A stretch of 64,000 nucleotides of DNA from Liolophura sinensis (Eukaryota > Mollusca > Polyplacophora > Chitonida > Chitonidae). The translations under genes were made by a program, and so were the position numbers. Each line of letters opens with the position of its first letter. Position 1 is the stretch's first letter. The stretch lies in NCBI RefSeq assembly GCF_032854445.1, contig NC_088298.1, forward strand, positions 17,999,976 through 18,063,975. Reading direction: 5' to 3'. The notes below the pieces were generated by a model. That model was not told where the DNA came from. It ran no database searches and worked only from the letters and a program-made list of their open reading frames with translations. Below, in pieces: positions 1 through 34,600 of this stretch.

Positions 1-1601
1 TACGTCTAACCGTGAATATGTAGTCTCCAACTGGTTGGCTAACTACTTCCCTGAGCTCACGGGTGTTAGTCAGACCTACTCCAACACCGTAGACAGAAAT
101 TCCTCTTTGACGAGCAGTTCTAGCGGCAGGGACAACCCACTCAGTATTCACACTGGATTCTCCGCCTGTCACCAATACAGCAACATCTGGCACATCTTTA
201 CGGTCTCCCGAGGATAACTTAAACATGTCTTTTCTGAAAGACCTGAGAGCTCCGGCCAGATTGGCTTTGCCCCCAGTGTACTTGACCTTGTTTATCGCAT
301 CCAAGACATCGGCTTTTGTCGAATATCGATTCATCTGGAAAGGAATGTCTGTTTTTCTGCCATACGTCAATAATCCCACGCGGAGAGAACCACCGTCAAT
401 GTCTGAGGATTCGACTATTCTTCTGGCAAACACTCTCATGTTTTCAAAGTCGTCTGGAGAAACGTTGTCGGATGAGTCAAGAATCAAAACCAAGTCTCTG
501 GGAACTTTGATGCCAGTCACCGCCACGGGAGCCGTCGTCTTCTCTTTCTTTTCAGCGGGTCGTCTTGTACGTACTGTAAACCTGTCAGTGGCATCTGGCG
601 CCTCTGTGCCAACTGTCTGGCCTGGTGTGCCCGTGAAAGGTTGCTGTGTTGCTTCAGGCTCTTCGAATATGTCTGTTGGTATTTCCGGTTGTCTGGGTGT
701 GGTCTTGTCTCTTGTTACAAACGCTGTTTCTGTTGGTTGTTTTCTTGGCGCTTTTGTTGTCCTGTCTTCATCCGGGGACATTGTGGTCTTGTCTGGATAC
801 CTGTCCCTGCTAACCTGTGGTTTACCTGTGGGCTCTGATGTTACTGGCCGTCTGGGCACGCTGGTTGTCTCCCTGAAATACTCGTCAGTCTCTTCTTCCT
901 CTTCCGTGGTGAAGGCTTCGGGCGCTGCTGTTTGTTCCGGTTTCCTTGGAGTTGCACGGGTCTTTTTGGTGGGCTCGGTCTCAACAACGTATTCATCGGT
1001 TACCCCAGGTTGTCCTGAGCCTGTAAATAAGAATCAAAACAGTTGCTTGAAAAGAAAAAGGAAATCGACACGATACAATGTTGCCATACACACAGCAAGC
1101 AACTTGTGCTCTTTTCTCCACCTTTTTTGAAAGAAATAATGCGCTGAGGCTATAGGCTTGAGTGACGTTTTGACGAGAGCATCAAGTAATTTAGCCTATT
1201 GCAGCTGCCATGGAGTGGAGATGGCACAACGGACACTATGGATATAGTCTTACCCTCAATATCATCTGTGACAGGTTGCTTTTCAGGTAATTTCGCTGGT
1301 GTGAAGGTCACTCCTGGCTCTGCTCGCGTCGTGCTTTCAGTTTTGAGGGCTAACTGAACAGTTGGTGTTGCTGCTGGCTGGGACGCCTCAGTCAGAGTTA
1401 CGATTGGTCTGGCTTTAGCTGTCGTTGTTTCTCTTGGTTCAAGGGATTCCTTCTCCTCGGGGAGCATCTTTGTTGGAAGAGTCTTCCCGGGCAGATCAGT
1501 GCTGATTTCTTCCGCAGGCTTCCTGCTTTCTGTCTGTCTGTCGAGTGATGTGACCGGTTGGACAGTTTGTGCTGCTGTTGTTAACAGTGATTCTCTTGCC
1601 A
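1..1601 (-). CDS. Array pair 19 (3'-most): exon B 1254-1601, exon A 1-1020 (cut by edge)
   Basis: Exon B is complete. Exon A is truncated by the window edge; by comparison with other copies 50 coding bases are missing. Copy-specific state in exon A (residues numbered from its first split codon): Gln4 instead of Glu4, so the Ser-Gly motif reads GSGQ; Lys27, Gln69, Phe148, Asn244; synonymous AGA marker in the RTRRP segment. Confidence 0.88.
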
Positions 1602-4600
1602 CTGTAAAACAAAATTGGAAGAAATTGCAGAGATCAAAGGGATGATGTGAGCCTGTCGAAAGATGATAATTTCAATTTGCACTGCTTCCCACAGCGATTT
1701 ACAAACGCTAACAAGGCTGGGAATTTACAGAAAGAAAACGCAGCATGTCTTACCTCCAAACACTGCTGAAATCAGTGGGCCCTGAACATCAGGCAAGGAC
1801 TGGCTACGTCTAACCGTGAATATGTAGTCTCCAACTGGTTGGCTAACTACTTCCCTGAGCTCACGGGTGTTAGTCAGACCTACTCCAACACCGTAGACAG
1901 AAATTCCTCTTTGACGAGCAGTTCTAGCGGCAGGGACAACCCACTCAGTATTCACACTGGATTCTCCGCCTGTCACCAATACAGCAACATCTGGCACATC
2001 TTTACGGTCTCCCGAGGATAACTTAAACATGTCTTTTCTGAAAGACCTGAGAGCTCCGGCCAGATTGGCTTTGCCCCCAGTGTACTTGACCTTGTTTATC
2101 GCATCCAAGACATCGGCTTTTGTCGAATATCGATTCATCTGGAAAGGAATGTCTGTTTTTCTGCCATACGTCAATAATCCCACGCGGAGAGAACCACCGT
2201 CAATGTCTGAGGATTCGACTATTCTTCTGGCAAACACTCTCATGTTTTCAAAGTCGTCTGGAGAAACGTTGTCGGATGAGTCAAGAATCAAAACCAAGTC
2301 TCTGGGAACTTTGATGCCAGTCACCGCCACGGGAGCCGTCGTCTTCTCTTTCTTTTCAGCGGGTCGCCTTGTACGTACTGTAACCCTGTCAGTGGCATCT
2401 GGCGCCTCTGTGCCAACTGTCTGGCCTGGTGTGCCCGTGAAAGGTTGCTGTGTTGCTTCAGGCTCTTCGAATATGTCTGTTGGTATTTCCGGTTGTCTGG
2501 GTGTGGTCTTGTCTCTTGTTACAAACGCTGTTTCTGTTGGTTGTTTTCTTGGCGCTTTTGTTGTCCTGTCTTCATCCGGGGACATTGTGGTCTTGTCTGG
2601 ATACCTGTCCCTGCTAACCTGTGGTTTACCTGTGGGCTCTGATGTTACTGGCCGTCTGGGCACGCTGGTTGTCTCCCTGAAATACTCGTCAGTCTCTTCT
2701 TCCTCTTCCGTGGTGAAGGCTTCGGGCGCTGCTGTTTGTTCCGGTTTCCTTGGAGTTGCACGGGTCTTTTTGGTGGGCTCGGTCTCAACAACGTATTCAT
2801 CGGTTACCCCAGGTTCTCCTGAGCCTGTAAATAAGAATCAAAACAGTTGCTTGAAAAGAAAAAGGAAATCGACACGATACAATGTTGCCATACACACAGC
2901 AAGCAACTTGTGCTCTTTTCTCCACCTTTTTTGAAAGAAATAATGCGCTGAGGCTATAGGCTTGAGTGACGTTTTGACGAGAGCATCAAGTAATTTAGCC
3001 TATTGCAGCTGCCATGGAGTGGAGATGGCACAACGGACACTATGGATATAGTCTTACCCTCAATATCATCTGTGACAGGTTGCTTTTCAGGTAATTTCGC
3101 TGGTGTGAAGGTCACTCCTGGCTCTGCTCGCGTCGTGCTTTCAGTTTTGAGGGCTAACTGAACAGTTGGTGTTGCTGCTGGCTGGGACGCCTCAGTCAGA
3201 GTTACGATTGGTCTGGCTTTAGCTGTCGTTGTTTCTCTTGGTTCAAGGGATTCCTTCTCCTCGGGGAGCATCTTTGTTGGAAGAGTCTTCCCGGGCAGAT
3301 CAGTGCTGATTTCTTCCGCAGGCTTCCTGCTTTCTGTCTGTCTGTCGAGTGATGTGACCGGTTGGACAGTTTGTGCTGCTGTTGTTAACAGTGATTCTCT
3401 TGCCACTATAAAACAAAATTGGAAGAAATTGCAGAGATAAAAGGGATGATGTGAGCCTGTCGAAAGATGATAATTTCAATTTGCACTGCTTCCCACAGCG
3501 ATTTACAAACGCTAACAAGGCTGGGAATTTACAGAAAGAAAACGCAGCATGTCTTACCTCCAAACACTGCTGAAATCAGTGGGCCCTGAACATCAGGCAA
3601 GGACTGGCTACGTCTAACCGTGAATATGTAGTCTCCAACTGGTTGGCTAACTACTTCCCTGAGCTCACGGGTGTTAGTCAGACCTACTCCAACACCGTAG
3701 ACAGAAATTCCTCTTTGACGAGCAGTTCTAGCGGCAGGGACAACCCACTCAGTATTCACACTGGATTCTCCGCCTGTCACCAATACAGCAACATCTGGCA
3801 CATCTTTACGGTCTCCCGAGGATAACTTAAACATGTCTTTTCTGAAAGACCTGAGAGCTCCGGCCAGATTGGCTTTGCCCCCAGTGTACTTGACCTTGTT
3901 TATCGCATCCAAGACATCGGCTTTTGTCGAATATCGATTCATCTGGAAAGGAATGTCTGTTTTTCTGCCATACGTCAATAATCCCACGCGGAGAGAACCA
4001 CCGTCAATGTCTGAGGATTCGACTATTCTTCTGGCAAACACTCTCATGTTTTCAAAGTCGTCTGGAGAAACGTTGTCGGATGAGTCAAGAATCAAAACCA
4101 AGTCTCTGGGAACTTTGATGCCAGTCACCGCCACGGGAGCCGTCGTCTTCTCTTTCTTTTCAGCGGGTCGCCTTGTACGTACTGTAAACCTGTCAGTGGC
4201 ATCTGGCGCCTCTGTGCCAACTGTCTGGCCTGGTGTGCCCGTGAAAGGTTGCTGTGTTGCTTCAGGCTCTTCGAATATGTCTGTTGGTATTTCCGGTTGT
4301 CTGGGTGTGGTCTTGTCTCTTGTTACAAACGCTGTTTCTGTTGGTTGTTTTCTTGGCGCTTTTGTTGTCCTGTCTTCATCCGGGGACATTGTGGTCTTGT
4401 CTGGATACCTGTCCCTGCTAACCTGTGGTTTACCTGTGGGCTCTGATGTTACTGGCCGTCTGGGCACGCTGGTTGTCTCCCTGAAATACTCGTCAGTCTC
4501 TTCTTCCTCTTCCGTGGTGAAGGCTTCGGGCGCTGCTGTTTGTTCCGGTTTCCTTGGAGTTGCACGGGTCTTTTTGGTGGGCTCGGTCTCAACAACGTAT

Positions 4601-7600
4601 TCATCGGTTACCCCAGGTTCTCCTGAGCCTGTAAATAAGAATCAAAACAGTTGCTTGAAAAGAAAAAGGAAATCGACACGATACAATGTTGCCATACACA
4701 CAGCAAGCAACTTGTGCTCTTTTCTCCACCTTTTTTGAAAGAAATAATGCGCTGAGGCTATAGGCTTGAGTGACGTTTTGACGAGAGCATCAAGTAATTT
4801 AGCCTATTGCAGCTGCCATGGAGTGGAGATGGCACAACGGACACTATGGATATAGTCTTACCCTCAATATCATCTGTGACAGGTTGCTTTTCAGGTAATT
4901 TCGCTGGTGTGAAGGTCACTCCTGGCTCTGCTCGCGTCGTGCTTTCAGTTTTGAGGGCTAACTGAACAGTTGGTGTTGCTGCTGGCTGGGACGCCTCAGT
5001 CAGAGTTACGATTGGTCTGGCTTTAGCTGTCGTTGTTTCTCTTGGTTCAAGGGATTCCTTCTCCTCGGGGAGCATCTTTGTTGGAAGAGTCTTCCCGGGC
5101 AGATCAGTGCTGATTTCTTCCGCAGGCTTCCTGCTTTCTGTCTGTCTGTCGAGTGATGTGACCGGTTGGACAGTTTGTGCTGCTGTTGTTAACAGTGATT
5201 CTCTTGCCACTGTAAAACAAAATTGGAAGAAATTGCAGAGATCAAAGGGATGATGTGAGCCTGTCGAAAGATGATAATTTCAATTTGCACTGCTTCCCAC
5301 AGCGATTTACAAACGCTAACAAGGCTGGGAATTTACAGAAAGAAAACGCAGCATGTCTTACCTCCAAACACTGCTGAAATCAGTGGGCCCTGAACATCAG
5401 GCAAGGACTGGCTACGTCTAACCGTGAATATGTAGTCTCCAACTGGTTGGCTAACTACTTCCCTGAGCTCACGGGTGTTAGTCAGACCTACTCCAACACC
5501 GTAGACAGAAATTCCTCTTTGACGAGCAGTTCTAGCGGCAGGGACAACCCACTCAGTATTCACACTGGATTCTCCGCCTGTCACCAATACAGCAACATCT
5601 GGCACATCTTTACGGTCTCCCGAGGATAACTTAAACATGTCTTTTCTGAAAGACCTGAGAGCTCCGGCCAGATTGGCTTTGCCCCCAGTGTACTTGACCT
5701 TGTCTATCGCATCCAAGACATCGGCTTTTGTCGAATATCGATTCATCTGGAAAGGAATGTCTGTTTTTCTGCCATACGTCAATAATCCCACGCGGAGAGA
5801 ACCACCGTCAATGTCTGAGGATTCGACTATTCTTCTGGCAAACACTCTCATGTTTTCAAAGTCGTCTGGAGAAACGTTGTCGGATGAGTCAAGAATCAAA
5901 ACCAAGTCTCTGGGAACTTTGATGCCAGTCACCGCCACGGGAGCCGTCGTCTTCTCTTTCTTTTCAGCGGGTCGTCTTGTACGTACTGTAAACCTGTCAG
6001 TGGCATCTGGCGCCTCTGTGCCAACTGTCTGGCCTGGTGTGCCCGTGAAAGGTTGCTGTGTTGCTTCAGGCTCTTCGAATATGTCTGTTGGTATTTCCGG
6101 TTGTCTGGGTGTGGTCTTGTCTCTTGTTACAAACGCTGTTTCTGTTGGTTGTTTTCTTGGCGCTTTTGTTGTCCTGTCTTCATCCGGGGACATTGTGGTC
6201 TTGTCTGGATACCTGTCCCTGCTAACCTGTGGTTTACCTGTGGGCTCTGATGTTACTGGCCGTCTGGGCACGCTGGTTGTCTCCCTGAAATACTCGTCAG
6301 TCTCTTCTTCCTCTTCCGTGGTGAAGGCTTCGGGCGCTGCTGTTTGTTCCGGTTGCCTTGGAGTTGCACGGGTCTTTTTGGTGGGCTCGGTCTCAACAAC
6401 GTATTCATCGGTTACCCAAGGTTCTCCTGAGCCTGTAAATAAGAATCAAATCAGTTGCTTGAAAAGAAAAAGGAAATCGACACGATACAATGTTGCCATA
6501 CACACAGCAAGCAACTTGTGCTCTTTTCTCCACCTTTTTTGAAAGAAATAATGCGCTGAGGCTATAGGCTTGAGTGACGTTTTGACGAGAGCATCAAGTA
6601 ATTTAGCCTATTGCAGCTGCCATGGAGTGGAGATGGCACAACGGACACTATGGATATAGTCTTACCCTCAATATCATCTGTGACAGGTTGCTTTTCAGGT
6701 AATTTCGCTGGTGTGAAGGTCACTCCTGGCTCTGCTCGCGTCGTGCTTTCAGTTTTGAGGGCTAACTGAACAGTTGGTGTTGCTGCTGGCTGGGACGCCT
6801 CAGTCAGAGTTACGATTGGTCTGGCTTTAGCTGTCGTTGTTTCTCTTGGTTCAAGGGATTCCTTCTCCTCGGGGAGCATCTTTGTTGGAAGAGTCTTCCC
6901 GGGCAGATCAGTGCTGATTTCTTCCGCAGGCTTCCTGCTTTCTGTCTGTCTGTCGAGTGATGTGACCGGTTGGACAGTTTGTGCTGCTGTTGTTAACAGT
7001 GATTCTCTTGCCACTGTAAAACAAAATTGGAAGAAATTGCAGAGATCAAAGGGATGATGTGAGCCTGTCGAAAGATGATAATTTCAATTTGCACTGCTTC
7101 CCACAGCGATTTACAAACGCTAACAAGGCTGGGAATTTACAGAAAGAAAACGCAGCATGTCTTACCTCCAAACACTGCTGAAATCAGTGGGCCCTGAACA
7201 TCAGGCAAGGACTGGCTACGTCTAACCGTGAATATGTAGTCTCCAACTGGTTGGCTAACTACTTCCCTGAGCTCACGGGTGTTAGTCAGACCTACTCCAA
7301 CACCGTAGACAGAAATTCCTCTTTGACGAGCAGTTCTAGCGGCAGGGACAACCCACTCAGTATTCACACTGGATTCTCCGCCTGTCACCAATACAGCAAC
7401 ATCTGGCACATCTTTACGGTCTCCCGAGGATAACTTAAACATGTCTTTTCTGAAAGACCTGAGAGCTCCGGCCAGATTGGCTTTGCCCCCAGTGTACTTG
7501 ACCTTGTTTATCGCATCCAAGACATCGGCTTTTGTCGAATATCGATTCATCTGGAAAGGAATGTCTGTTTTTCTGCCATACGTCAATAATCCCACGCGGA

Positions 7601-10600
7601 GAGAACCACCGTCAATGTCTGAGGATTCGACTATTCTTCTGGCAAACACTCTCATGTTTTCAAAGTCGTCTGGAGAAACGTTGTCGGATGAGTCAAGAAT
7701 CAAAACCAAGTCTCTGGGAACTTTGATGCCAGTCACCGCCACGGGAGCCGTCGTCTTCTCTTTCTTTTCAGCGGGTCGCCTTGTACGTACTGTAAACCTG
7801 TCAGTGGCATCTGGCGCCTCTGTGCCAACTGTCTGGCCTGGTGTGCCCGTGAAAGGTTGCTGTGTTGCTTCAGGCTCTTCGAATATGTCTGTTGGTATTT
7901 CCGGTTGTCTGGGTGTGGTCTTGTCTCTTGTTACAAGCGCTGTTTCTGTTGGTTGTTTTCTTGGCGCTTTTGTTGTCCTGTCTTCATCCGGGGACATTGT
8001 GGTCTTGTCTGGATACCTGTCCCTGCTAACCTGTGGTTTACCTGTGGGCTCTGATGTTACTGGCCGTCTGGGCACGCTGGTTGTCTCCCTGAAATACTCG
8101 TCAGTCTCTTCTTCCTCTTCCGTGGTGAAGGCTTCGGGCGCTGCTGTTTGTTCCGGTTGCCTTGGAGTTGCACGGGTCTTTTTGGTGGGCTCGGTCTCAA
8201 CAACGTATTCATCGGTTACCCCAGGTTCTCCTGAGCCTGTAAATAAGAATCAAAACAGTTGCTTGAAAAGAAAAAGGAAATCGACACGATACAATGTTGC
8301 CATACACACAGCAAGCAACTTGTGCTCTTTTCTCCACCTTTTTTGAAAGAAATAATGCGCTGAGGCTATAGGCTTGAGTGACGTTTTGACGAGAGCATCA
8401 AGTAATTTAGCCTATTGCAGCTGCCATGGAGTGTAGATGGCACAACGGACACTATGGATATAGTCTTACCCTCAATATCATCTGTGACAGGTTGCTTTTC
8501 AGGTAATTTCGCTGGTGTGAAGGTCACTCCTGGCTCTGCTCGCGTCGTGCTTTCAGTTTTGAGGGCTAAATGAACAGTTGGTGTTGCTGCTGGCTGGGAC
8601 GCCTCAGTCAGAGTTACGATTGGTCTGGCTTTAGCTGTCGTTGTTTCTCTTGGTTCAAGGGATTCCTTCTCCTCGGGGAGCATCTTTGTTGGAAGAGTCT
8701 TCCCGGGCAGATCAGTGCTGATTTCTTCCGCAGGCTTCCTGCTTTCTGTCTGTCTGTCGAGTGATGTGACCGGTTGGACAGTTTGTGCTGCTGTTGTTAA
8801 CAGTGATTCTCTTGCCACTGTAAAACAAAATTGGAAGAAATTGCAGAGATAAAAGGGATGATGTGAGCCTGTCGAAAGATGATAATTTCAATTTGCACTG
8901 CTTCCCACAGCGATTTACAAACGCTAACAAGGCTGGGAATTTACAGAAAGAAAACGCAGCATGTCTTACCTCCAAACACTGCTGAAATCAGTGGGCCCTG
9001 AACATCAGGCAAGGACTGGCTACGTCTAACCGTGAATATGTAGTCTCCAACTGGTTGGCTAACTACTTCCCTGAGCTCACGGGTGTTAGTCAGACCTACT
9101 CCAACACCGTAGACAGAAATTCCTCTTTGACGAGCAGTTCTAGCGGCAGGGACAACCCACTCAGTATTCACACTGGATTCTCCGCCTGTCACCAATACAG
9201 CAACATCTGGCACATCTTTACGGTCTCCCGAGGATAACTTAAACATGTCTTTTCTGAAAGACCTGAGAGCTCCGGCCAGATTGGCTTTGCCCCCAGTGTA
9301 CTTGACCTTGTTTATCGCATCCAAGACATCGGCTTTTGTCGAATATCGATTCATCTGGAAAGGAATGTCTGTTTTTCTGCCATACGTCAATAATCCCACG
9401 CGGAGAGAACCACCGTCAATGTCTGAGGATTCGACTATTCTTCTGGCAAACACTCTCATGTTTTCAAAGTCGTCTGGAGAAACGTTGTCGGATGAGTCAA
9501 GAATCAAAACCAAGTCTCTGGGAACTTTGATGCCAGTCACCGCCACGGGAGCCGTCGTCTTCTCTTTCTTTTCAGCGGGTCGCCTTGTACGTACTGTAAA
9601 CCTGTCAGTGGCATCTGGCGCCTCTGTGCCAACTGTCTGGCCTGGTGTGCCCGTGAAAGGTTGCTGTGTTGCTTCAGGCTCTTCGAATATGTCTGTTGGT
9701 ATTTCCGGTTGTCTGGGTGTGGTCTTGTCTCTTGTTACAAACGCTGTTTCTGTTGGTTGTTTTCTTGGCGCTTTTGTTGTCCTGTCTTCATCCGGGGACA
9801 TTGTGGTCTTGTCTGGATACCTGTCCCTGCTAACCTCTGGTTTACCTGTGGGCTCTGATGTTACTGGCCGTCTGGGCACGCTGGTTGTCTCCCTGAAATA
9901 CTCGTCAGTCTCTTCTTCCTCTTCCGTGGTGAAGGCTTCGGGCGCTGCTGTTTGTTCCGGTTGCCTTGGAGTTGCACGGGTCTTTTTGGTGGGCTCGGTC
10001 TCAACAACGTATTCATCGGTTACCCCAGGTTCTCCTGAGCCTGTAAATAAGAATCAAAACAGTTGCTTGAAAAGAAAAAGGAAATCGACACGATACAATG
10101 TTGCCATACACACAGCAAGCAACTTGTGCTCTTTTCTCCACCTTTTTTGAAAGAAATAATGCGCTGAGGCTATAGGCTTGAGTGACGTTTTGACGAGAGC
10201 ATCAAGTAATTTAGCCTATTGCAGCTGCCATGGAGTGGAGATGGCACAACGGACACTATGGATATAGTCTTACCCTCAATATCATCTGTGACAGGTTGCT
10301 TTTCAGGTAATTTCGCTGGTGTGAAGGTCACTCCTGGCTCTGCTCGCGTCGTGCTTTCAGTTTTGAGGGCTAACTGAACAGTTGGTGTTGCTGCTGGCTG
10401 GGACGCCTCAGTCAGAGTTACGATTGGTCTGGCTTTAGCTGTCGTTGTTTCTCTTGGTTCAAGGGATTCCTTCTCCTCGGGGAGCATCTTTGTTGGAAGA
10501 GTCTTCCCGGGCAGATCAGTGCTGATTTCTTCCGCAGGCTTCCTGCTTTCTGTCTGTCTGTCGAGTGATGTGACCGGTTGGACAGTTTGTGCTGCTGTTG

Positions 10601-13600
10601 TTAACAGTGATTCTCTTGCCACTGTAAAACAAAATTGGAAGAAATTGCAGAGATCAAAGGGATGATGTGAGCCTGTCGAAAGATGATAATTTCAATTTGC
10701 ACTGCTTCCCACAGCGATTTACAAACGCTAACAAGGCTGGGAATTTACAGAAAGAAAACGCAGCATGTCTTACCTCCAAACACTGCTGAAATCAGTGGGC
10801 CCTGAACATCAGGCAAGGACTGGCTACGTCTAACCGTGAATATGTAGTCTCCAACTGGTTGGCTAACTACTTCCCTGAGCTCACGGGTGTTAGTCAGACC
10901 TACTCCAACACCGTAGACAGAAATTCCTCTTTGACGAGCAGTTCTAGCGGCAGGGACAACCCACTCAGTATTCACACTGGATTCTCCGCCTGTCACCAAT
11001 ACAGCAACATCTGGCACATCTTTACGGTCTCCCGAGGATAACTTAAACATGTCTTTTCTGAAAGACCTGAGAGCTCCGGCCAGATTGGCTTTGCCCCCAG
11101 TGTACTTGACCTTGTTTATCGCATCCAAGACATCGGCTTTTGTCGAATATCGATTCATCTGGAAAGGAATGTCTGTTTTTCTGCCATACGTCAATAATCC
11201 CACGCGGAGAGAACCACCGTCAATGTCTGAGGATTCGACTATTCTTCTGGCAAACACTCTCATGTTTTCAAAGTCGTCTGGAGAAACGTTGTCGGATGAG
11301 TCAAGAATCAAAACCAAGTCTCTGAGAACTTTGATGCCAGTCACCGCCACGGGAGCCGTCGTCTTCTCTTTCTTTTCAGCGGGTCGTCTTGTACGTACTG
11401 TAAACCTGTCAGTGGCATCTGGCGCCTCTGTGCCAACTGTCTGGCCTGGTGTGCCCGTGAAAGGTTGCTGTGTTGCTTCAGGCTCTTCGAATATGTCTGT
11501 TGGTATTTCCGGTTGTCTGGGTGTGGTCTTGTCTCTTGTTACAAACGCTGTTTCTGTTGGTTGTTTTCTTGGCGCTTTTGTTGTCCTGTCTTCATCCGGG
11601 GACATTGTGGTCTTGTCTGGATACCTGTCCCTGCTAACCTGTGGTTTACCTGTGGGCTCTGATGTTACTGGCCGTCTGGGCACGCTGGTTGTCTCCCTGA
11701 AATACTCGTCAGTCTCTTCTTCCTCTTCCGTGGTGAAGGCTTCGGGCGCTGCTGTTTGTTCCGGTTTCCTTGGAGTTGCACGGGTCTTTTTGGTGGGCTC
11801 GGTCTCAACAACGTATTCATCGGTTACCCCAGGTTCTCCTGAGCCTGTAAATAAGAATCAAAACAGTTGCTTGAAAAGAAAAAGGAAATCGACACGATAC
11901 AATGTTGCCATACACACAGCAAGCAACTTGTGCTCTTTTCTCCACCTTTTTTGAAAGAAATAATGCGCTGAGGCTATAGGCTTGAGTGACGTTTTGACGA
12001 GAGCATCAAGTAATTTAGCCTATTGCAGCTGCCATGGAGTGGAGATGGCACAACGGACACTATGGATATAGTCTTACCCTCAATATCATCTGTGACAGGT
12101 TGCTTTTCAGGTAATTTCGCTGGTGTGAAGGTCACTCCTGGCTCTGCTCGCGTCGTGCTTTCAGTTTTGAGGGCTAACTGAACAGTTGGTGTTGCTGCTG
12201 GCTGGGACGCCTCAGTCAGAGTTACGATTGGTCTGGCTTTAGCTGTCGTTGTTTCTCTTGGTTCAAGGGATTCCTTCTCCTCGGGGAGCATCTTTGTTGG
12301 AAGAGTCTTCCCGGGCAGATCAGTGCTGATTTCTTCCGCAGGCTTCCTGCTTTCTGTCTGTCTGTCGAGTGATGTGACCGGTTGGACAGTTTGTGCTGCT
12401 GTTGTTAACAGTGATTCTCTTGCCACTGTAAAACAAAATTGGAAGAAATTGCAGAGATCAAAGGGATGATGTGAGCCTGTCGAAAGATGATAATTTCAAT
12501 TTGCACTGCTTCCCACAGCGATTTACAAACGCTAACAAGGCTGGGAATTTACAGAAAGAAAACGCAGCATGTCTTACCTCCAAACACTGCTGAAATCAGT
12601 GGGCCCTGAACATCAGGCAAGGACTGGCTACGTCTAACCGTGAATATGTAGTCTCCAACTGGTTGGCTAACTACTTCCCTGAGCTTACGGGTGTTAGTCA
12701 GACCTACTCCAACACCGTAGACAGAAATTCCTCTTTGACGAGCAGTTCTAGCGGCAGGGACAACCCACTCAGTATTCACACTGGATTCTCCGCCTGTCAC
12801 CAATACAGCAACATCTGGCACATCTTTACGGTCTCCCGAGGATAACTTAAACATGTCTTTTCTGAAAGACCTGAGAGCTCCGGCCAGATTGGCTTTGCCC
12901 CCAGTGTACTTGACCTTGTTTATCGCATCCAAGACATCGGCTTTTGTCGAATATCGATTCATCTGGAAAGGAATGTCTGTTTTTCTGCCATACGTCAATA
13001 ATCCCACGCGGAGAGAACCACCGTCAATGTCTGAGGATTCGACTATTCTTCTGGCAAACACTCTCATGTTTTCAAAGTCGTCTGGAGAAACGTTGTCGGA
13101 TGAGTCAAGAATCAAAACCAAGTCTCTGGGAACTTTGATGCCAGTCACCGCCACGGGAGCCGTCGTCTTCTCTTTCTTTTCAGCGGGTCGCCTTGTACGT
13201 ACTGTAACCCTGTCAGTGGCATCTGGCGCCTCTGTGCCAACTGTCTGGCCTGGTGTGCCCGTGAAAGGTTGCTGTGTTGCTTCAGGCTCTTCGAATATGT
13301 CTGTTGGTATTTCCGGTTGTCTGGGTGTGGTCTTGTCTCTTGTTACAAACGCTGTTTCTGTTGGTTGTTTTCTTGGCGCTTTTGTTGTCCTGTCTTCATC
13401 CGGGGACATTGTGGTCTTGTCTGGATACCTGTCCCTGCTAACCTGTGGTTTACCTGTGGGCTCTGATGTTACTGGCCGTCTGGGCACGCTGGTTGTCTCC
13501 CTGAAATACTCGTCAGTCTCTTCTTCCTCTTCCGTGGTGAAGGCTTCGGGCGCTGCTGTTTGTTCCGGTTGCCTTGGAGTTGCACGGGTCTTTTTGGTGG

Positions 13601-22600: not shown

Positions 22601-25600
22601 TGCACGGGTCTTTTTGGTGGGCTCGGTCTCAACAACGTATTCATCGGTTACCCCAGGTTCTCCTGAGCCTGTAAATAAGAATCAAAACAGTTGCTTGAAA
22701 AGAAAAAGGAAATCGACACGATACAATGTTGCCATACACACAGCAAGCAACTTGTGCTCTTTTCTCCACCTTTTTTGAAAGAAATAATGCGCTGAGGCTA
22801 TAGGCTTGAGTGACGTTTTGACGAGAGCATCAAGTAATTTAGCCTATTGCAGCTGCCATGGAGTGGAGATGGCACAACGGACACTATGGATATAGTCTTA
22901 CCCTCAATATCATCTGTGACAGGTTGCTTTTCAGGTAATTTCGCTGGTGTGAAGGTCACTCCTGGCTCTGCTCGCGTCGTGCTTTCAGTTTTGAGGGCTA
23001 ACTGAACAGTTGGTGTTGCTGCTGGCTGGGACGCCTCAGTCAGAGTTACGATTGGTCTGGCTTTAGCTGTCGTTGTTTCTCTTGGTTCAAGGGATTCCTT
23101 CTCCTCGGGGAGCATCTTTGTTGGAAGAGTCTTCCCGGGCAGATCAGTGCTGATTTCTTCCGCAGGCTTCCTGCTTTCTGTCTGTCTGTCGAGTGATGTG
23201 ACCGGTTGGACAGTTTGTGCTGCTGTTGTTAACAGTGATTCTCTTGCCACTGTAAAACAAAATTGGAAGAAATTGCAGAGATAAAAGGGATGATGTGAGC
23301 CTGTCGAAAGATGATAATTTCAATTTGCACTGCTTCCCACAGCGATTTACAAACGCTAACAAGGCTGGGAATTTACAGAAAGAAAACGCAGCATGTCTTA
23401 CCTCCAAACACTGCTGAAATCAGTGGGCCCTGAACATCAGGCAAGGACTGGCTACGTCTAACCGTGAATATGTAGTCTCCAACTGGTTGGCTAACTACTT
23501 CCCTGAGCTCACGGGTGTTAGTCAGACCTACTCCAACACCGTAGACAGAAATTCCTCTTTGACGAGCAGTTCTAGCGGCAGGGACAACCCACTCAGTATT
23601 CACACTGGATTCTCCGCCTGTCACCAATACAGCAACATCTGGCACATCTTTACGGTCTCCCGAGGATAACTTAAACATGTCTTTTCTGAAAGACCTGAGA
23701 GCTCCGGCCAGATTGGCTTTGCCCCCAGTGTACTTGACCTTGTTTATCGCATCCAAGACATCGGCTTTTGTCGAATATCGATTCATCTGGAAAGGAATGT
23801 CTGTTTTTCTGCCATACGTCAATAATCCCACGCGGAGAGAACCACCGTCAATGTCTGAGGATTCGACTATTCTTCTGGCAAACACTCTCATGTTTTCAAA
23901 GTCGTCTGGAGAAACGTTGTCGGATGAGTCAAGAATCAAAACCAAGTCTCTGGGAACTTTGATGCCAGTCACCGCCACGGGAGCCGTCGTCTTCTCTTTC
24001 TTTTCAGCGGGTCGTCTTGTACGTACTGTAAACCTGTCAGTGGCATCTGGCGCCTCTGTGCCAACTGTCTGGCCTGGTGTGCCCGTGAAAGGTTGCTGTG
24101 TTGCTCCAGGCTCTTCGAATATATCTGTTGGTATTTCCGGTTGTCTGGGTGTGGTCTTGTCTCTTGTTACAAACGCTGTTTCTGTTGGTTGTTTTCTTGG
24201 CGCTTTTGTTGTCCTGTCTTCATCCGGGGACATTGTGGTCTTGTCTGGATACCTGTCCCTGCTAACCTCTGGTTTACCTGTGGGCTCTGATGTTACTGGC
24301 CGTCTGGGCACGCTGGTTGTCTCCCTGAAATACTCGTCAGTCTCTTCTTCCTCTTCCGTGGTGAAGGCTTCGGGCGCTGCTGTTTGTTCCGGTTGCCTTG
24401 GAGTTGCACGGGTCTTTTTGGTGGGCTCGGTCTCAACAACGTATTCATCGGTTACCCCAGGTTCTCCTGAGCCTGTAAATAAGAATCAAAACAGTTGCTT
24501 GAAAAGAAAAAGGAAATCGACACGATACAATGTTGCCATACACACAGCAAGCAACTTGTGCTCTTTTCTCCACCTTTTTTGAAAGAAATAATGCGCTGAG
24601 GCTATAGGCTTGAGTGACGTTTTGAGGAGAGCATCAAGTAATTTAGCCTATTGCAGCTGCCATGGAGTGGAGATGGCACAACGGACACTATGGATATAGT
24701 CTTACCCTCAATATCATCTGTGACAGGTTGCTTTTCAGGTAATTTCGCTGGTGTGAAGGTCACTCCTGGCTCTGCTCGCGTCGTGCTTTCAGTTTTGAGG
24801 GCTAACTGAACAGTTGGTGTTGCTGCTGGCTGGGACGCCTCAGTCAGAGTTACGATTGGTCTGGCTTTAGCTGTCGTTGTTTCTCTTGGTTCAAGGGATT
24901 CCTTCTCCTCGGGGAGCATCTTTGTTGGAAGAGTCTTCCCGGGCAGATCAGTGCTGATTTCTTCCGCAGGCTTCCTGCTTTCTGTCTGTCTGTCGAGTGA
25001 TGTGACCGGTTGGACAGTTTGTGCTGCTGTTGTTAACAGTGATTCTCTTGCCACTGTAAAACAAAATTGGAAGAAATTGCAGAGATAAAAGGGATGATGT
25101 GAGCCTGTCGAAAGATGATAATTTCAATTTGCACTGCTTCCCACAGCGATTTACAAACGCTAACAAGGCTGGGAATTTACAGAAAGAAAACGCAGCATGT
25201 CTTACCTCCAAACACTGCTGAAATCAGTGGGCCCTGAACATCAGGCAAGGACTGGCTACGTCTAACCGTGAATATGTAGTCTCCAACTGGTTGGCTAACT
25301 ACTTCCCTGAGCTCACGGGTGTTAGTCAGACCTACTCCAACACCGTAGACAGAAATTCCTCTTTGACGAGCAGTTCTAGCGGCAGGGACAACCCACTCAG
25401 TATTCACACTGGATTCTCCGCCTGTCACCAATACAGCAACATCTGGCACATCTTTACGGTCTCCCGAGGATAACTTAAACATGTCTTTTCTGAAAGACCT
25501 GAGAGCTCCGGCCAGATTGGCTTTGCCCCCAGTGTACTTGACCTTGTTTATCGCATCCAAGACATCGGCTTTTGTCGAATATCGATTCATCTGGAAAGGA

Positions 25601-28600
25601 ATGTCTGTTTTTCTGCCATACGTCAATAATCCCACGCGGAGAGAACCACCGTCAATGTCTGAGGATTCGACTATTCTTCTGGCAAACACTCTCATGTTTT
25701 CAAAGTCGTCTGGAGAAACGTTGTCGGATGAGTCAAGAATCAAAACCAAGTCTCTGGGAACTTTGATGCCAGTCACCGCCACGGGAGCCGTCGTCTTCTC
25801 TTTCTTTTCAGCGGGTCGCCTTGTACGTACTGTAAACCTGTCAGTGGCATCTGGCGCCTCTGTGCCAACTGTCTGGCCTGGTGTGCCCGTGAAAGGTTGC
25901 TGTGTTGCTTCAGGCTCTTCGAATATGTCTGTTGGTATTTCCGGTTGTCTGGGTGTGGTCTTGTCTCTTGTTACAAACGCTGTTTCTGTTGGTTGTTTTC
26001 TTGGCGCTTTTGTTGTCCTGTCTTCATCCGGGGACATTGTGGTCTTGTCTGGATACCTGTCCCTGCTAACCTGTGGTTTACCTGTGGGCTCTGATGTTAC
26101 TGGCCGTCTGGGCACGCTGGTTGTCTCCCTGAAATACTCGTCAGTCTCTTCTTCCTCTTCCGTGGTGAAGGCTTCGGGCGCTGCTGTTTGTTCCGGTTGC
26201 CTTGGAGTTGCACGGGTCTTTTTGGTGGGCTCGGTCTCAACAACGTATTCATCGGTTACCCCAGGTTCTCCTGAGCCTGTAAATAAGAATCAAAACAGTT
26301 GCTTGAAAAGAAAAAGGAAATCGACACGATACAGTGTTGCCATACACACAGCAAGCAACTTGTGCTCTTTTCTCCACCTTTTTTGAAAGAAATAATGCGC
26401 TGAGGCTATAGGCTTGAGTGACGTTTTGACGAGAGCATCAAGTAATTTAGCCTATTGCAGCTGCCATGGAGTGGAGATGGCACAACGGACACTATGGATA
26501 TAGTCTTACCCTCAATATCATCTGTGACAGGTTGCTTTTCAGGTAATTTCGCTGGTGTGAAGGTCACTCCTGGCTCTGCTCGCGTCGTGCTTTCAGTTTT
26601 GAGGGCTAACTGAACAGTTGGTGTTGCTGCTGGCTGGGACGCCTCAGTCAGAGTTACGATTGGTCTGGCTTTAGCTGTCGTTGTTTCTCTTGGTTCAAGG
26701 GATTCCTTCTCCTCGGGGAGCATCTTTGTTGGAAGAGTCTTCCCGGGCAGATCAGTGCTGATTTCTTCCGCAGGCTTCCTGCTTTCTGTCTGTCTGTCGA
26801 GTGATGTGACCGGTTGGACAGTTTGTGCTGCTGTTGTTAACAGTGATTCTCTTGCCACTGTAAAACAAAATTGGAAGAAATTGCAGAGATAAAAGGGATG
26901 ATGTGAGCCTGTCGAAAGATGATAATTTCAATTTGCACTGCTTCCCACAGCGATTTACAAACGCTAACAAGGCTGGGAATTTACAGAAAGAAAACGCAGC
27001 ATGTCTTACCTCCAAACACTGCTGAAATCAGTGGGCCCTGAACATCAGGCAAGGACTGGCTACGTCTAACCGTGAATATGTAGTCTCCAACTGGTTGGCT
27101 AACTACTTCCCTGAGCTCACGGGTGTTAGTCAGACCTACTCCAACACCGTAGACAGAAATTCCTCTTTGACGAGCAGTTCTAGCGGCAGGGACAACCCAC
27201 TCAGTATTCACACTGGATTCTCCGCCTGTCACCAATACAGCAACATCTGGCACATCTTTACGGTCTCCCGAGGATAACTTAAACATGTCTTTTCTGAAAG
27301 ACCTGAGAGCTCCGGCCAGATTGGCTTTGCCCCCAGTGTACTTGACCTTGTTTATCGCATCCAAGACATCGGCTTTTGTCGAATATCGATTCATCTGGAA
27401 AGGAATGTCTGTTTTTCTGCCATACGTCAATAATCCCACGCGGAGAGAACCACCGTCAATGTCTGAGGATTCGACTATTCTTCTGGCAAACACTCTCATG
27501 TTTTCAAAGTCGTCTGGAGAAACGTTGTCTGATGAGTCAAGAATCAAAACCAAGTCTCTGGGAACTTTGATGCCAGTCACCGCCACGGGAGCCGTCGTCT
27601 TCTCTTTCTTTTCAGCGGGTCGCCTTGTACGTACTGTAACCCTGTCAGTGGCATCTGGCGCCTCTGTGCCAACTGTCTGGCCTGGTGTGCCCGTGAAAGG
27701 TTGCTGTGTTGCTTCAGGCTCTTCGAATATGTCTGTTGGTATTTCCGGTTGTCTGGGTGTGGTCTTGTCTCTTGTTACAAACGCTGTTTCTGTTGGTTGT
27801 TTTCTTGGCGCTTTTGTTGTCCTGTCTTCATCCGGGGACATTGTGGTCTTGTCTGGATACCTGTCCCTGCTAACCTGTGGTTTACCTGTGGGCTCTGATG
27901 TTACTGGCCGTCTGGGCACGCTGGTTGTCTCCCTGAAATACTCGTCAGTCTCTTCTTCCTCTTCCGTGGTGAAGGCTTCGGGCGCTGCTGTTTGTTCCGG
28001 TTGCCTTGGAGTTGCACGGGTCTTTTTGGTGGGCTCGGTCTCAACAACGTATTCATCGGTTACCCCAGGTTCTCCTGAGCCTGTAAATAAGAATCAAAAC
28101 AGTTGCTTGAAAAGAAAAAGGAAATCGACACGATACAATGTTGCCATACACACAGCAAGCAACTTGTGCTCTTTTCTCCACCTTTTTTGAAAGAAATAAT
28201 GCGCTGAGGCTATAGGCTTGAGTGACGTTTTGACGAGAGCATCAAGTAATTTAGCCTATTGCAGCTGCCATGGAGTGGAGATGGCACAACGGACACTATG
28301 GATATAGTCTTACCCTCAATATCATCTGTGACAGGTTGCTTTTCAGGTAATTTCGCTGGTGTGAAGGTCACTCCTGGCTCTGCTCGCGTCGTGCTTTCAG
28401 TTTTGAGGGCTAACTGAACAGTTGGTGTTGCTGCTGGCTGGGACGCCTCAGTCAGAGTTACGATTGGTCTGGCTTTAGCTGTCGTTGTTTCTCTTGGTTC
28501 AAGGGATTCCTTCTCCTCGGGGAGCATCTTTGTTGGAAGAGTCTTCCCGGGCAGATCAGTGCTGATTTCTTCCGCAGGCTTCCTGCTTTCTGTCTGTCTG

Positions 28601-31600
28601 TCGAGTGATGTGACCGGTTGGACAGTTTGTGCTGCTGTTGTTAACAGTGATTCTCTTGCCACTGTAAAACAAAATTGGAAGAAATTGCAGAGATAAAAGG
28701 GATGATGTGAGCCTGTCGAAAGATGATAATTTCAATTTGCACTGCTTCCCACAGCGATTTACAAACGCTAACAAGGCTGGGAATTTACAGAAAGAAAACG
28801 CAGCATGTCTTACCTCCAAACACTGCTGAAATCAGTGGGCCCTGAACATCAGGCAAGGACTGGCTACGTCTAACCGTGAATATGTAGTCTCCAACTGGTT
28901 GGCTAACTACTTCCCTGAGCTCACGGGTGTTAGTCAGACCTACTCCAACACCGTAGATAGAAATTCCTCTTTGACGAGCAGTTCTAGCGGCAGGGACAAC
29001 CCACTCAGTATTCACACTGGATTCTCCGCCTGTCACCAATACAGCAACATCTGGCACATCTTTACGGTCTCCCGAGGATAACTTAAACATGTCTTTTCTG
29101 AAAGACCTGAGAGCTCCGGCCAGATTGGCTTTGCCCCCAGTGTACTTGACCTTGTTTATCGCATCCAAGACATCGGCTTTTGTCGAATATCGATTCATCT
29201 GGAAAGGAATGTCTGTTTTTCTGCCATACGTCAATAATCCCACGCGGAGAGAACCACCGTCAATGTCTGAGGATTCGACTATTCTTCTGGCAAACACTCT
29301 CATGTTTTCAAAGTCGTCTGGAGAAACGTTGTCGGATGAGTCAAGAATCAAAACCAAGTCTCTGGGAACTTTGATGCCAGTCACCGCCACGGGAGCCGTC
29401 GTCTTCTCTTTCTTTTCAGCGGGTCGCCTTGTACGTACTGTAAACCTGTCAGTGGCATCTGGCGCCTCTGTGCCAACTGTCTGGCCTGGTGTGCCCGTGA
29501 AAGGTTGCTGTGTTGCTTCAGGCTCTTCGAATATGTCTGTTGGTATTTCCGGTTGTCTGGGTGTGGTCTTGTCTCTTGTTACAAACGCTGTTTCTGTTGG
29601 TTGTTTTCTTGGCGCTTTTGTTGTCCTGTCTTCATCCGGGGACATTGTGGTCTTGTCTGGATACCTGTCCCTGCTAACCTGTGGTTTACCTGTGGGCTCT
29701 GATGTTACTGGCCGTCTGGGCACGCTGGTTGTCTCCCTGAAATACTCGTCAGTCTCTTCTTCCTCTTCCGTGGTGAAGGCTTCGGGCGCTGCTGTTTGTT
29801 CCGGTTGCCTTGGAGTTGCACGGGTCTTTTTGGTGGGCTCGGTCTCAACAACGTATTCATCGGTTACCCCAGGTTCTCCTGAGCCTGTAAATAAGAATCA
29901 AAACAGTTGCTTGAAAAGAAAAAGGAAATCGACACGATACAATGTTGCCATACACACAGCAAGCAACTTGTGCTCTTTTCTCCACCTTTTTTGAAAGAAA
30001 TAATGCGCTGAGGCTATAGGCTTGAGTGACGTTTTGACGAGAGCATCAAGTAATTTAGCCTATTGCAGCTGCCATGGAGTGGAGATGGCACAACGGACAC
30101 TATGGATATAGTCTTACCCTCAATATCATCTGTGACAGGTTGCTTTTCAGGTAATTTCGCTGGTGTGAAGGTCACTCCTGGCTCTGCTCGCGTCGTGCTT
30201 TCAGTTTTGAGGGCTAACTGAACAGTTGGTGTTGCTGCTGGCTGGGACGCCTCAGTCAGAGTTACGATTGGTCTGGCTTTAGCTGTCGTTGTTTCTCTTG
30301 GTTCAAGGGATTCCTTCTCCTCGGGGAGCATCTTTGTTGGAAGAGTCTTCCCGGGCAGATCAGTGCTGATTTCTTCCGCAGGCTTCCTGCTTTCTGTCTG
30401 TCTGTCGAGTGATGTGACCGGTTGGACAGTTTGTGCTGCTGTTGTTAACAGTGATTCTCTTGCCACTGTAAAACAAAATTGGAAGAAATTGCAGAGATAA
30501 AAGGGATGATGTGAGCCTGTCGAAAGATGATAATTTCAATTTGCACTGCTTCCCACAGCGATTTACAAACGCTAACAAGGCTGGGAATTTACAGAAAGAA
30601 AACGCAGCATGTCTTACCTCCAAACACTGCTGAAATCAGTGGGCCCTGAACATCAGGCAAGGACTGGCTACGTCTAACCGTGAATATGTAGTCTCCAACT
30701 GGTTGGCTAACTACTTCCCTGAGCTCACGGGTGTTAGTCAGACCTACTCCAACACCGTAGACAGAAATTCCTCTTTGACGAGCAGTTCTAGCGGCAGGGA
30801 CAACCCACTCAGTATTCACACTGGATTCTCCGCCTGTCACCAATACAGCAACATCTGGCACATCTTTACGGTCTCCCGAGGATAACTTAAACATGTCTTT
30901 TCTGAAAGACCTGAGAGCTCCGGCCAGATTGGCTTTGCCCCCAGTGTACTTGACCTTGTTTATCGCATCCAAGACATCGGCTTTTGTCGAATATCGATTC
31001 ATCTGGAAAGGAATGTCTGTTTTTCTGCCATACGTCAATAATCCCACGCGGAGAGAACCACCGTCAATGTCTGAGGATTCGACTATTCTTCTGGCAAACA
31101 CTCTCATGTTTTCAAAGTCGTCTGGAGAAACGTTGTCGGATGAGTCAAGAATCAAAACCAAGTCTCTGGGAACTTTGATGCCAGTCACCGCCACGGGAGC
31201 CGTCGTCTTCTCTTTCTTTTCAGCGGGTCGCCTTGTACGTACTGTAACCCTGTCAGTGGCATCTGGCGCCTCTGTGCCAACTGTCTGGCCTGGTGTGCCC
31301 GTGAAAGGTTGCTGTGTTGCTTCAGGCTCTTCGAATATGTCTGTTGGTATTTCCGGTTGTCTGGGTGTGGTCTTGTCTCTTGTTACAAACGCTGTTTCTG
31401 TTGGTTGTTTTCTTGGCGCTTTTGTTGTCCTGTCTTCATCCGGGGACATTGTGGTCTTGTCTGGATACCTGTCCCTGCTAACCTGTGGTTTACCTGTGGG
31501 CTCTGATGTTACTGGCCGTCTGGGCACGCTGGTTGTCTCCCTGAAATACTCGTCAGTCTCTTCTTCCTCTTCCGTGGTGAAGGCTTCGGGCGCTGCTGTT

Positions 31601-34600
31601 TGTTCCGGTTGCCTTGGAGTTGCACGGGTCTTTTTGGTGGGCTCGGTCTCAACAACGTATTCATCGGTTACCCCAGGTTCTCCTGAGCCTGTAAATAAGA
31701 ATCAAAACAGTTGCTTGAAAAGAAAAAGGAAATCGACACGATACAATGTTGCCATACACACAGCAAGCAACTTGTGCTCTTTTCTCCACCTTTTTTGAAA
31801 GAAATAATGCGCTGAGGCTATAGGCTTGAGTGACGTTTTGACGAGAGCATCAAGTAATTTAGCCTATTGCAGCTGCCATGGAGTGTAGATGGCACAACGG
31901 ACACTATGGATATAGTCTTACCCTCAATATCATCTGTGACAGGTTGCTTTTCAGGTAATTTCGCTGGTGTGAAGGTCACTCCTGGCTCTGCTCGCGTCGT
32001 GCTTTCAGTTTTGAGGGCTAACTGAACAGTTGGTGTTGCTGCTGGCTGGGACGCCTCAGTCAGAGTTACGATTGGTCTGGCTTTAGCTGTCGTTGTTTCT
32101 CTTGGTTCAAGGGATTCCTTCTCCTCGGGGAGCATCTTTGTTGGAAGAGTCTTCCCGGGCAGATCAGTGCTGATTTCTTCCGCAGGCTTCCTGCTTTCTG
32201 TCTGTCTGTCGAGTGATGTGACCGGTTGGACAGTTTGTGCTGCTGTTGTTAACAGTGATTCTCTTGCCACTGTAAAACAAAATTGGAAGAAATTGCAGAG
32301 ATAAAAGGGATGATGTGAGCCTGTCGAAAGATGATAATTTCAATTTGCACTGCTTCCCACAGCGATTTACAAACGCTAACAAGGCTGGGAATTTACAGAA
32401 AGAAAACGCAGCATGTCTTACCTCCAAACACTGCTGAAATCAGTGGGCCCTGAACATCAGGCAAGGACTGGCTACGTCTAACCGTGAATATGTAGTCTCC
32501 AACTGGTTGGCTAACTACTTCCCTGAGCTCACGGGTGTTAGTCAGACCTACTCCAACACCGTAGACAGAAATTCCTCTTTGACGAGCAGTTCTAGCGGCA
32601 GGGACAACCCACTCAGTATTCACACTGGATTCTCCGCCTGTCACCAATACAGCAACATCTGGCACATCTTTACGGTCTCCCGAGGATAACTTAAACATGT
32701 CTTTTCTGAAAGACCTGAGAGCTCCGGCCAGATTGGCTTTGCCCCCAGTGTACTTGACCTTGTTTATCGCATCCAAGACATCGGCTTTTGTCGAATATCG
32801 ATTCATCTGGAAAGGAATGTCTGTTTTTCTGCCATACGTCAATAATCCCACGCGGAGAGAACCACCGTCAATGTCTGAGGATTCGACTATTCTTCTGGCA
32901 AACACTCTCATGTTTTCAAAGTCGTCTGGAGAAACGTTGTCGGATGAGTCAAGAATCAAAACCAAGTCTCTGGGAACTTTGATGCCAGTCACCGCCACGG
33001 GAGCCGTCGTCTTCTCTTTCTTTTCAGCGGGTCGCCTTATACGTACTGTAAACCTGTCAGTGGCATCTGGCGCCTCTGTGCCAACTGTCTGGCCTGGTGT
33101 GCCCATGAAAGGTTGCTGTGTTGCTTCAGGCTCTTCGAATATGTCTGTTGGTATTTCCGGTTGTCTGGGTGTGGTCTTGTCTCTTGTTACAAACGCTGTT
33201 TCTGTTGGTTGTTTTCTTGGCGCTTTTGTTGTCCTGTCTTCATCCGGGGACATTGTGGTCTTGTCTGGATACCTGTCCCTGCTAACCTGTGGTTTACCTG
33301 TGGGCTCTGATGTTACTGGCCGTCTGGGCACGCTGGTTGTCTCCCTGAAATACTCGTCAGTCTCTTCTTCCTCTTCCGTGGTGAAGGCTTCGGGCGCTGC
33401 TGTTTGTTCCGGTTGCCTTGGCGTTGCACGGGTCTTTTTGGTGGGCTCGGTCTCAACAACGTATTCATCGGTTACCTCAGGTTCTCCTGAGCCTGTAAAT
33501 AAGAATCAAAACAGTTGCTTGAAAAGAAAAAGGAAATCGACACAATACAATGTTGCCATACACACAGCAAGCAACTTGTGCTCTTTTCTCCACCTTTTTT
33601 GAAAGAAATAATGCGCTGAGGCTATAGGCTTGAGTGACGTTTTGACGAGAGCATCAAGTAATTTAGCCTATTGCAGCTGCCATGGAGTGGAGATGGCACA
33701 ACGGACACTATGGATATAGTCTTACCCTCAATATCATCTGTGACAGGTTGCTTTTCAGGTAATTTCGCTGGTGTGAAGGTCACTCCTGGCTCTGCTCGCG
33801 TCGTGCTTTCAGTTTTGAGGGCTAACTGAACAGTTGGTGTTGCTGCTGGCTGGGACGCCTCAGTCAGAGTTACGATTGGTCTGGCTTTAGCTGTCGTTGT
33901 TTCTCTTGGTTCAAGGGATTCCTTCTCCTCGGGAAGCATCTTTGCTGGAAGAGTCTTCCCGGGCAGGTCAGTGCTGATTTCTTCAGCAATTTTTGTCGGC
34001 GTGATGTGTTTTTCTAGAAGTAAAGTAATAGAATTGTGACGGGATGACTGTGTCGGCAGGACAGGTTGTGAAAGTACTCGTATTCTGTGAATTTGTTTAA
34101 ATTGAGATATCCATGAAGATAATATAAAGTAGGAGGTAAGTCCAACACAAAGTTTACAACAGAAGAATAAACTGCAAAGAAACAAACAAAAGAAACAAAA
34201 TGGAAAGAATCGAATGAGGAGGTAAATAGAAATTGAATTTTGATGTGGAAAATGTTGACCACTCTCAGAGAAATGAATTTTTTTTCATGAGGAGTTGAAC
34301 TAAAGGCATTACAAAGCGGCTAAAATTCTAGAACAGAACAGCGTTTCTACGTTTAATCCAAGTTTTAATTTTTAACGTAGAAGCATTCTGAAAAAAATTT
34401 ATGAAAACTGTGAAGATTTGAGAAACTCCTAAACTCACATGGCATTTGTGGTTTGTCATAGCGAAGATATGTACGAAGTTTCAGCCCAAAGGATTGAAAC
34501 ATTTCGAAACAGCCCGGTAAAAAAGAATTAAAGTGAACAACAGTAAATGATCCCGAAATGTTGCTAAAATACACCACAGGGCCCGAAACTGGAACTTGTT

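Follow-up and report, generated by a model that had tools for sequence, protein, structure and literature searches.

Near-identical von Willebrand factor A exon pairs form a 70-kb array in a chiton genome, probably as the middle of one giant gene

The chiton Liolophura sinensis carries, in the region examined here, a long tandem array of coding exons for von Willebrand factor A (VWA) domains. The window, by which we mean the whole 64,000-nucleotide stretch of contig NC_088298.1 that was analyzed, lies on a scaffold designated C4, and a window position equals the C4 position minus 17,999,975. A blastn search with one repeat unit placed the array on the minus strand at C4:17963752-18033963, where units of 1,804 bp extend over 70.2 kb and amount to 38 complete copies, flanked at the two ends by partial ones of 1,164 and 493 bp. 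About half of the array falls within the window, namely 18 complete units (u01 to u18) and part of u19, again on the minus strand, and the array extends 36 kb beyond the left edge of the window. A sequence-only reading of the window had proposed a 34-kb tandem array of coding linker and VWA exons, built of about 19 near-identical 1,804-bp units that add 473 residues each. The search with the unit, together with checks of its exons, bears out the array, the unit and the phase compatibility of the exons, whereas the length of 34 kb describes what is present in the window and the full array is twice as long.

Each unit consists of exon A (1,071 bp), an intron of 152 bp, exon B (348 bp) and an intron of 233 bp. 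All joints are in phase 1 and each unit contributes 473 residues, which brings the 38 complete units to about 18,000 residues. Exon A encodes a linker of about 175 residues and a VWA domain, and exon B a linker without a domain. The array, the exons of its first unit and its 5' edge are placed in the window as follows.

1..33495, minus strand: array of 1,804-bp units, from blastn of the unit; u01 starts at 33495 and each further unit 1,804 lower
32422..33492, minus strand: exon A of u01, linker plus VWA, phase 1-1, 1,071 bp; recurs in each unit
32453..32968, minus strand: VWA domain of u01, with the residues of the metal ion-dependent adhesion site (MIDAS) lost
31922..32269, minus strand: exon B of u01, linker, phase 1-1, 348 bp; recurs in each unit
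33724..34047, minus strand: diverged exon B copy at the 5' edge of the array, protein 84% identical

Successive units in the window are 99.3-100% identical per kb up to about position 32,100; homology to the unit stops at 33,988, and the match to the diverged exon B reaches about 34,047. A genome search with exon B, in which all 44 of 44 candidates were scored, gave 40 matches, every one of them in the array or at its edge, and this confinement rules out chance. A transposon or satellite is likewise ruled out, as exon B occurs only at this locus and exon A encodes a good VWA fold. Genome-wide counts of VWA domains are lower bounds, with 150 of 320 VWA candidates scored.

All 18 exons A and all 18 exons B of the complete units in the window are open, 17 of the latter as scored by script and that of u17 as judged from the alignment, because a single-nucleotide polymorphism three bases before the exon broke the search string of the script. 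Together with the diverged upstream exon B, these 36 account for the 37 complete open exons reported in the earlier reading. Over the whole array, exon A is intact in 37 of the 38 complete units (u30 has one extra A in its VWA exon), as is exon B (u21 is broken, and one exon was judged from the alignment); both exons are intact in 36 of 38 units, and the splice-site dinucleotides are kept. Unit u21 has 11 gap columns between unit positions 1297 and 1745, nine of them in exon B, and u38 has one extra T within an intron. The earlier statement that the array shows no net indel holds inside the window and fails outside it, where the frame-breaking indels of u21 and u30 both lie. The indels of these two units look like sequencing errors in an assembly (GCA_032854445.1) that, according to its description, rests on 14x HiFi coverage with a mean read of 8,347 bp (PMC11068029).

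The array sits in a longer run of VWA exons. A profile built from the region's own VWA domains gave 82 matches in 264 kb, all on the minus strand, which were merged by eye to 75 domains spanning 213 kb; 39 of these are in the array (from 40 matches) and 36 outside it (from 42). Inspected by eye, most VWA exons in the run are flanked by a good acceptor and donor in phase 1, and the introns between them reach about 10 kb. Within the window, the exons of the run outside the array are the following.

40095..40664, minus strand: VWA exon
41690..42646, minus strand: predicted linker exon of 957 bp, an open frame without a Pfam match
43156..43725, minus strand: VWA exon encoding the nearest non-array VWA to the array VWA (47% identical)
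46156..46725, minus strand: VWA exon absent from the exon-chain model, with boundaries set by splice-site inspection
49849..50418, minus strand: VWA exon
60278..60844, minus strand: VWA exon
62769..63341, minus strand: VWA exon; two further VWA exons lie past the window end, at C4:18068.7 and 18070.5 kb

A crude exon-chain model joins 122 exons, 115 of them phase 1-1, into a predicted product of 29,420 residues and about 3.2 MDa. The earlier proposal that the array lies inside one gene is supported in this form: the array belongs to a longer run of VWA exons on the same strand, which has the look of one gene. At its 3' part the run has the order VWA-EGF-VWA-VWA-EGF-VWA-EGF-VWA; the EGF motifs, three in number, are confined to the coding strand. 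By colinear tblastn this is the order of a predicted protein of the snail Babylonia areolata (LOC143292771), minus one EGF: the Babylonia EGF between the second and third VWA domains of the module was not found in the run by an EGF pattern search. The run also contains a second array at C4:17914-17933 kb, in which six VWA exons share 99.0-99.8% identity across the domain plus a further 300 bp, the linkers are rich in TPRQPEDRV repeats and one of the six exons is broken by an extra G. In the surrounding interval, C4:17903900-17934900, the VWA exons have very long linkers of the TPRQPEDRV type, and a more diverged group adjoins the six alike ones.

The VWA domain of the array matches PF00092 (Pfam, E 3.1e-36). 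In a structure model its predicted local distance difference test values are 92-98, and those of the exon A linker, taken by blocks, are 42-62, such that the linker is predicted to be disordered. The nearest folds found by Foldseek are the integrin I domain, the N2 domain of collagen VI alpha3 and the mussel protein PTMP1. The linkers contain 18% Thr, 12% Pro and 12% Glu, with Ser, Thr and Pro together at 35%, and no cysteine. The five MIDAS residues (DxSxS plus Thr and Asp) are intact in none of 38 array domains and in two of 30 non-array domains of the run, both near the 3' end, these tallies leaving aside split or partial domains (one of 39 in the array and six of 36 in the rest of the run). 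PMC3919171 describes a beads-on-a-string arrangement for the VWA domains of collagen VI and reports that most of them have no conserved MIDAS. On the strength of the MIDAS loss and this precedent, we read the VWA domains of the array as spacers.

Complete units, compared in all 703 pairs, differ by 6.1 bases (0.34%) on average, meaning that they are 99.7% alike, and one pair is identical. The heterozygosity given for the Liolophura japonica assembly is 1.24% (PMC11068029); since the units differ by less than this, the copies were homogenized more recently than typical alleles diverged. None of 5,000 shuffles made neighboring units as alike as they are, and all four combinations occur in 49 of 190 pairs of informative sites, as would be given by ongoing unequal exchange or conversion.

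A protein-database search with the 474-residue unit, of the kind suggested by the sequence-only reading, returned only three vitrins among candidates limited by length, and relatives came with a long reference: Babylonia LOC143292771 (5,709 aa, 27 VWA matches), Mizuhopecten yessoensis LOC110464458 (6,558 aa, 28 VWA matches) and a nematode protein at 4.6e-23. The Babylonia protein has 15 tandem VWA domains that are 90-100% identical to their neighbors. On the same scaffold as the window, a second VWA cluster at C4:23.53-23.65 Mb (23532001-23646000), known from 30 kb and two 3.5-kb loci, has tandem VWA-exon arrays of its own, shorter than that of the window (five and six complete copies), and two EGF motifs near its 3' end. 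The five VWA copies at 23.62 Mb, in alternating A/B units, encode identical protein, the domain carrying two synonymous changes and the introns a larger number, and the six at 23.56 Mb lie in units that are 83-99% identical. By eye, MIDAS is intact in the 23.62-Mb copies and not in those at 23.56 Mb, which indicates that its loss is not unique to the window gene; the notion that the second cluster keeps MIDAS was dropped, as only one of its two arrays does. The array in the window is thus not unique.

Among the loci compared, all 15 repeated Babylonia domains have their best match in the second chiton cluster, at 61-65% identity, versus 38% to the window array and 53% to the closest of the remaining VWA domains in the window gene. 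In the same comparison, some of the VWA domains in the 3' modules of Babylonia and the scallop match the window gene best. Simple orthology with the Babylonia protein was dropped because its repeated domains fit the second cluster better, and from these sequence comparisons we take the window gene for a paralog, one of a molluscan kind with recurring near-identical VWA arrays. It shares with the Babylonia and Mizuhopecten proteins the multi-VWA architecture and a C-terminal VWA/EGF module in nearly the same order, but those proteins are much shorter and their MIDAS is often intact (in 19 of 26 domains in Babylonia and 12 of 23 in the scallop, leaving aside one of 27 and five of 28 as split or partial), versus none of the 38 in the chiton array.

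Several better-known systems bear a likeness to the window gene. PTMP1 of the mussel byssus, a molluscan extracellular protein with two VWA domains, matches in both sequence and fold, but it is small and, by the title of structure 4cn9, has a metal-occupied MIDAS. Titin, the largest protein of muscle at about 34,000 residues, is an analogy without homology: the predicted length is of the same order and folded domains alternate with disordered charged stretches, but titin is intracellular and built of Ig and FN3 domains. Collagen VI alpha3 is the best PDB sequence match and shares the VWA fold, the beads-on-a-string arrangement and, for most domains, the absence of a conserved MIDAS (PMC3919171), whereas the window gene has long linkers between its VWA domains; no run of six or more Gly-X-Y triplets was present on either strand of the 264-kb region, within which the gene's 5' end could not be located, and this absence rules out identity as a collagen. 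Pif/BMSP and other shell-matrix VWA proteins are likewise secreted, molluscan and VWA-bearing, and VWA-rich families are described as expanded in the pearl oyster (PMC5597905). The window gene differs from these in its size and arrays, and a regular-expression search of the coding strand gave no CBM14-like chitin-binding cysteine pattern. In literature searches no published account turned up of the window gene, of VWA proteins in chitons or of VWA-exon arrays like this one, and neither VWA nor von Willebrand occurs in the main text of PMC7850002, PMC11545220 and PMC12005716. The earlier remark that no described family shows such duplication agrees with these searches, but near-identical VWA arrays recur in Babylonia and in the second chiton cluster, and the array is best described as an extreme variant of this molluscan kind.

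Taken together, the 38 near-identical two-exon units, each coding for a VWA domain and for linkers predicted to be disordered, probably make up the central part of a single gene of 213 kb, whose product would be a secreted, titin-sized structural protein of the beads-on-a-string type. With phase 1 at both ends of the exons, unequal exchange could add or remove whole units with the frame unbroken; length would then vary between alleles while the copies stay uniform. VWA domains without MIDAS would act as compact spacers and not as metal-dependent binding sites, and the Thr/Pro-rich linkers would be O-glycosylated and extended, so that spacers and linkers together may give a strand of great length, elastic or gel-forming, in mucus or matrix. 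Foot mucus, or the secretion of girdle and mantle, is our guess for the tissue. We advance more tentatively the specific proposal that the product is an extracellular VWA-mucin hybrid of about 29,000 residues and about 3 MDa, in which the 70-kb array is a frame-safe variable-number repeat homogenized faster than alleles coalesce, the unit count sets the length and differs between individuals, and the VWA domains are spacers without metal binding.

A serious though somewhat unlikely alternative is that the array is real in kind and wrong in length, a shorter or longer VWA-exon array having been stretched or collapsed by a low-coverage assembly of two haplotypes. The coverage, read length and heterozygosity cited above would permit this, and u21, with its 11 gap columns in 450 bp, resembles an unpolished read. 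On the other hand, no exact repeat in the array exceeds 2,495 bp, much less than a mean read, and the sole N gap lies outside the array. At offsets of 1-29 units, moreover, no two successive unit pairs are near-identical, which implies that no block of units was pasted twice; pasting of haplotype blocks as the sole cause of the array is ruled out by this absence. It is improbable, in our estimation, that the run instead comprises two or more neighboring VWA genes, one of which contains the array, and the protein would then be large but below titin size. The long introns separating VWA exons, some reaching about 10 kb, fit such a division, as do a 200-N gap within the run and the fact that the gene ends were not found; against it, all 82 VWA matches lie on one strand, the exons are in phase 1 throughout and a single EGF-bearing module stands at the 3' end.

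Several further observations weigh against a single intact giant gene. The exon-chain model drew part of its training from the very exons it joins, covers neither end of the gene, skips some VWA exons and includes some doubtful short ones; a 200-N scaffold gap lies inside the run at C4:17947398-17947597, about 16 kb from the array; and no first-exon candidate with a signal peptide was found in 33 kb upstream at the thresholds used, while the N-termini of the relatives resemble signal peptides by eye. Five VWA exons of the run are damaged or lie in damaged units, namely those of u21 and u30, one at C4:17919 kb with an extra G, one at C4:17957302-17957815 spread over several frames with at least three frame changes, and one at C4:17893246-17893493 spread over several frames with one frame change; the latter two are either decayed exons or assembly errors. 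The variants of the array comprise 26 nonsynonymous and 15 synonymous changes where 2.6-2.9:1 is expected, a ratio for which no significance was computed. Nor was it computed for the stops, of which there are none where about 1.5 are expected, and we do not claim purifying selection inside the array. Such damage, along with array introns that are no more variable than its exons (8 of 385 versus 41 of 1419 sites) and the lack of any selection shown to be significant, would suit an array that is decaying or untranslated, with copies spread by recombination alone and the gene partly pseudogenised. We consider this very improbable given that 36 of 38 units keep both exons intact along with their splice-site dinucleotides, and that the five protein-identical copies of the second cluster differ by synonymous changes in the domain and more in the introns. 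Tandem exon duplication is also a known route to mutually exclusive exons, according to PMC9013439, but the use of one or a few units per transcript is scarcely credible here, where the copies are so alike that choice among them would yield little diversity and where the unit is a pair of exons.

If the giant gene we favor is transcribed as one message, its product would rank with the largest predicted animal proteins, and it would be extracellular. The array clearly exemplifies concerted evolution of coding tandem exons, in which phase-1 exon pairs can be expanded in frame, a pattern that recurs in the second chiton cluster and the snail protein. It allows a test of the way in which the number of units determines how long a structural secretion becomes, and it suggests that low-coverage mollusc assemblies and their annotations may miss or break such genes.

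Two intronic minisatellites lie between VWA exons in the window, at 58672-60239 (29/145-bp units) and 37097-37576 (55/103-bp units). Just past the window, on the plus strand at C4:18065216-18066394, two adjoining open frames match HTH_Tnp_Tc3_2 and DDE_3, and these frames, of the Tc1/mariner transposase type, apparently sit in an intron of the run. COX1 of the assembly is nearest to that of chitons among the 120 matches listed, L. japonica itself not being one of them, with Acanthochitona defilippii at 94% and Callochiton at 92%. Elsewhere in the assembly, the mitochondrial contig C99 carries seven COX1 copies at a spacing of about 15.5 kb, and contig C632 carries one more; the mitochondrial genome was left in the assembly as a concatemer.

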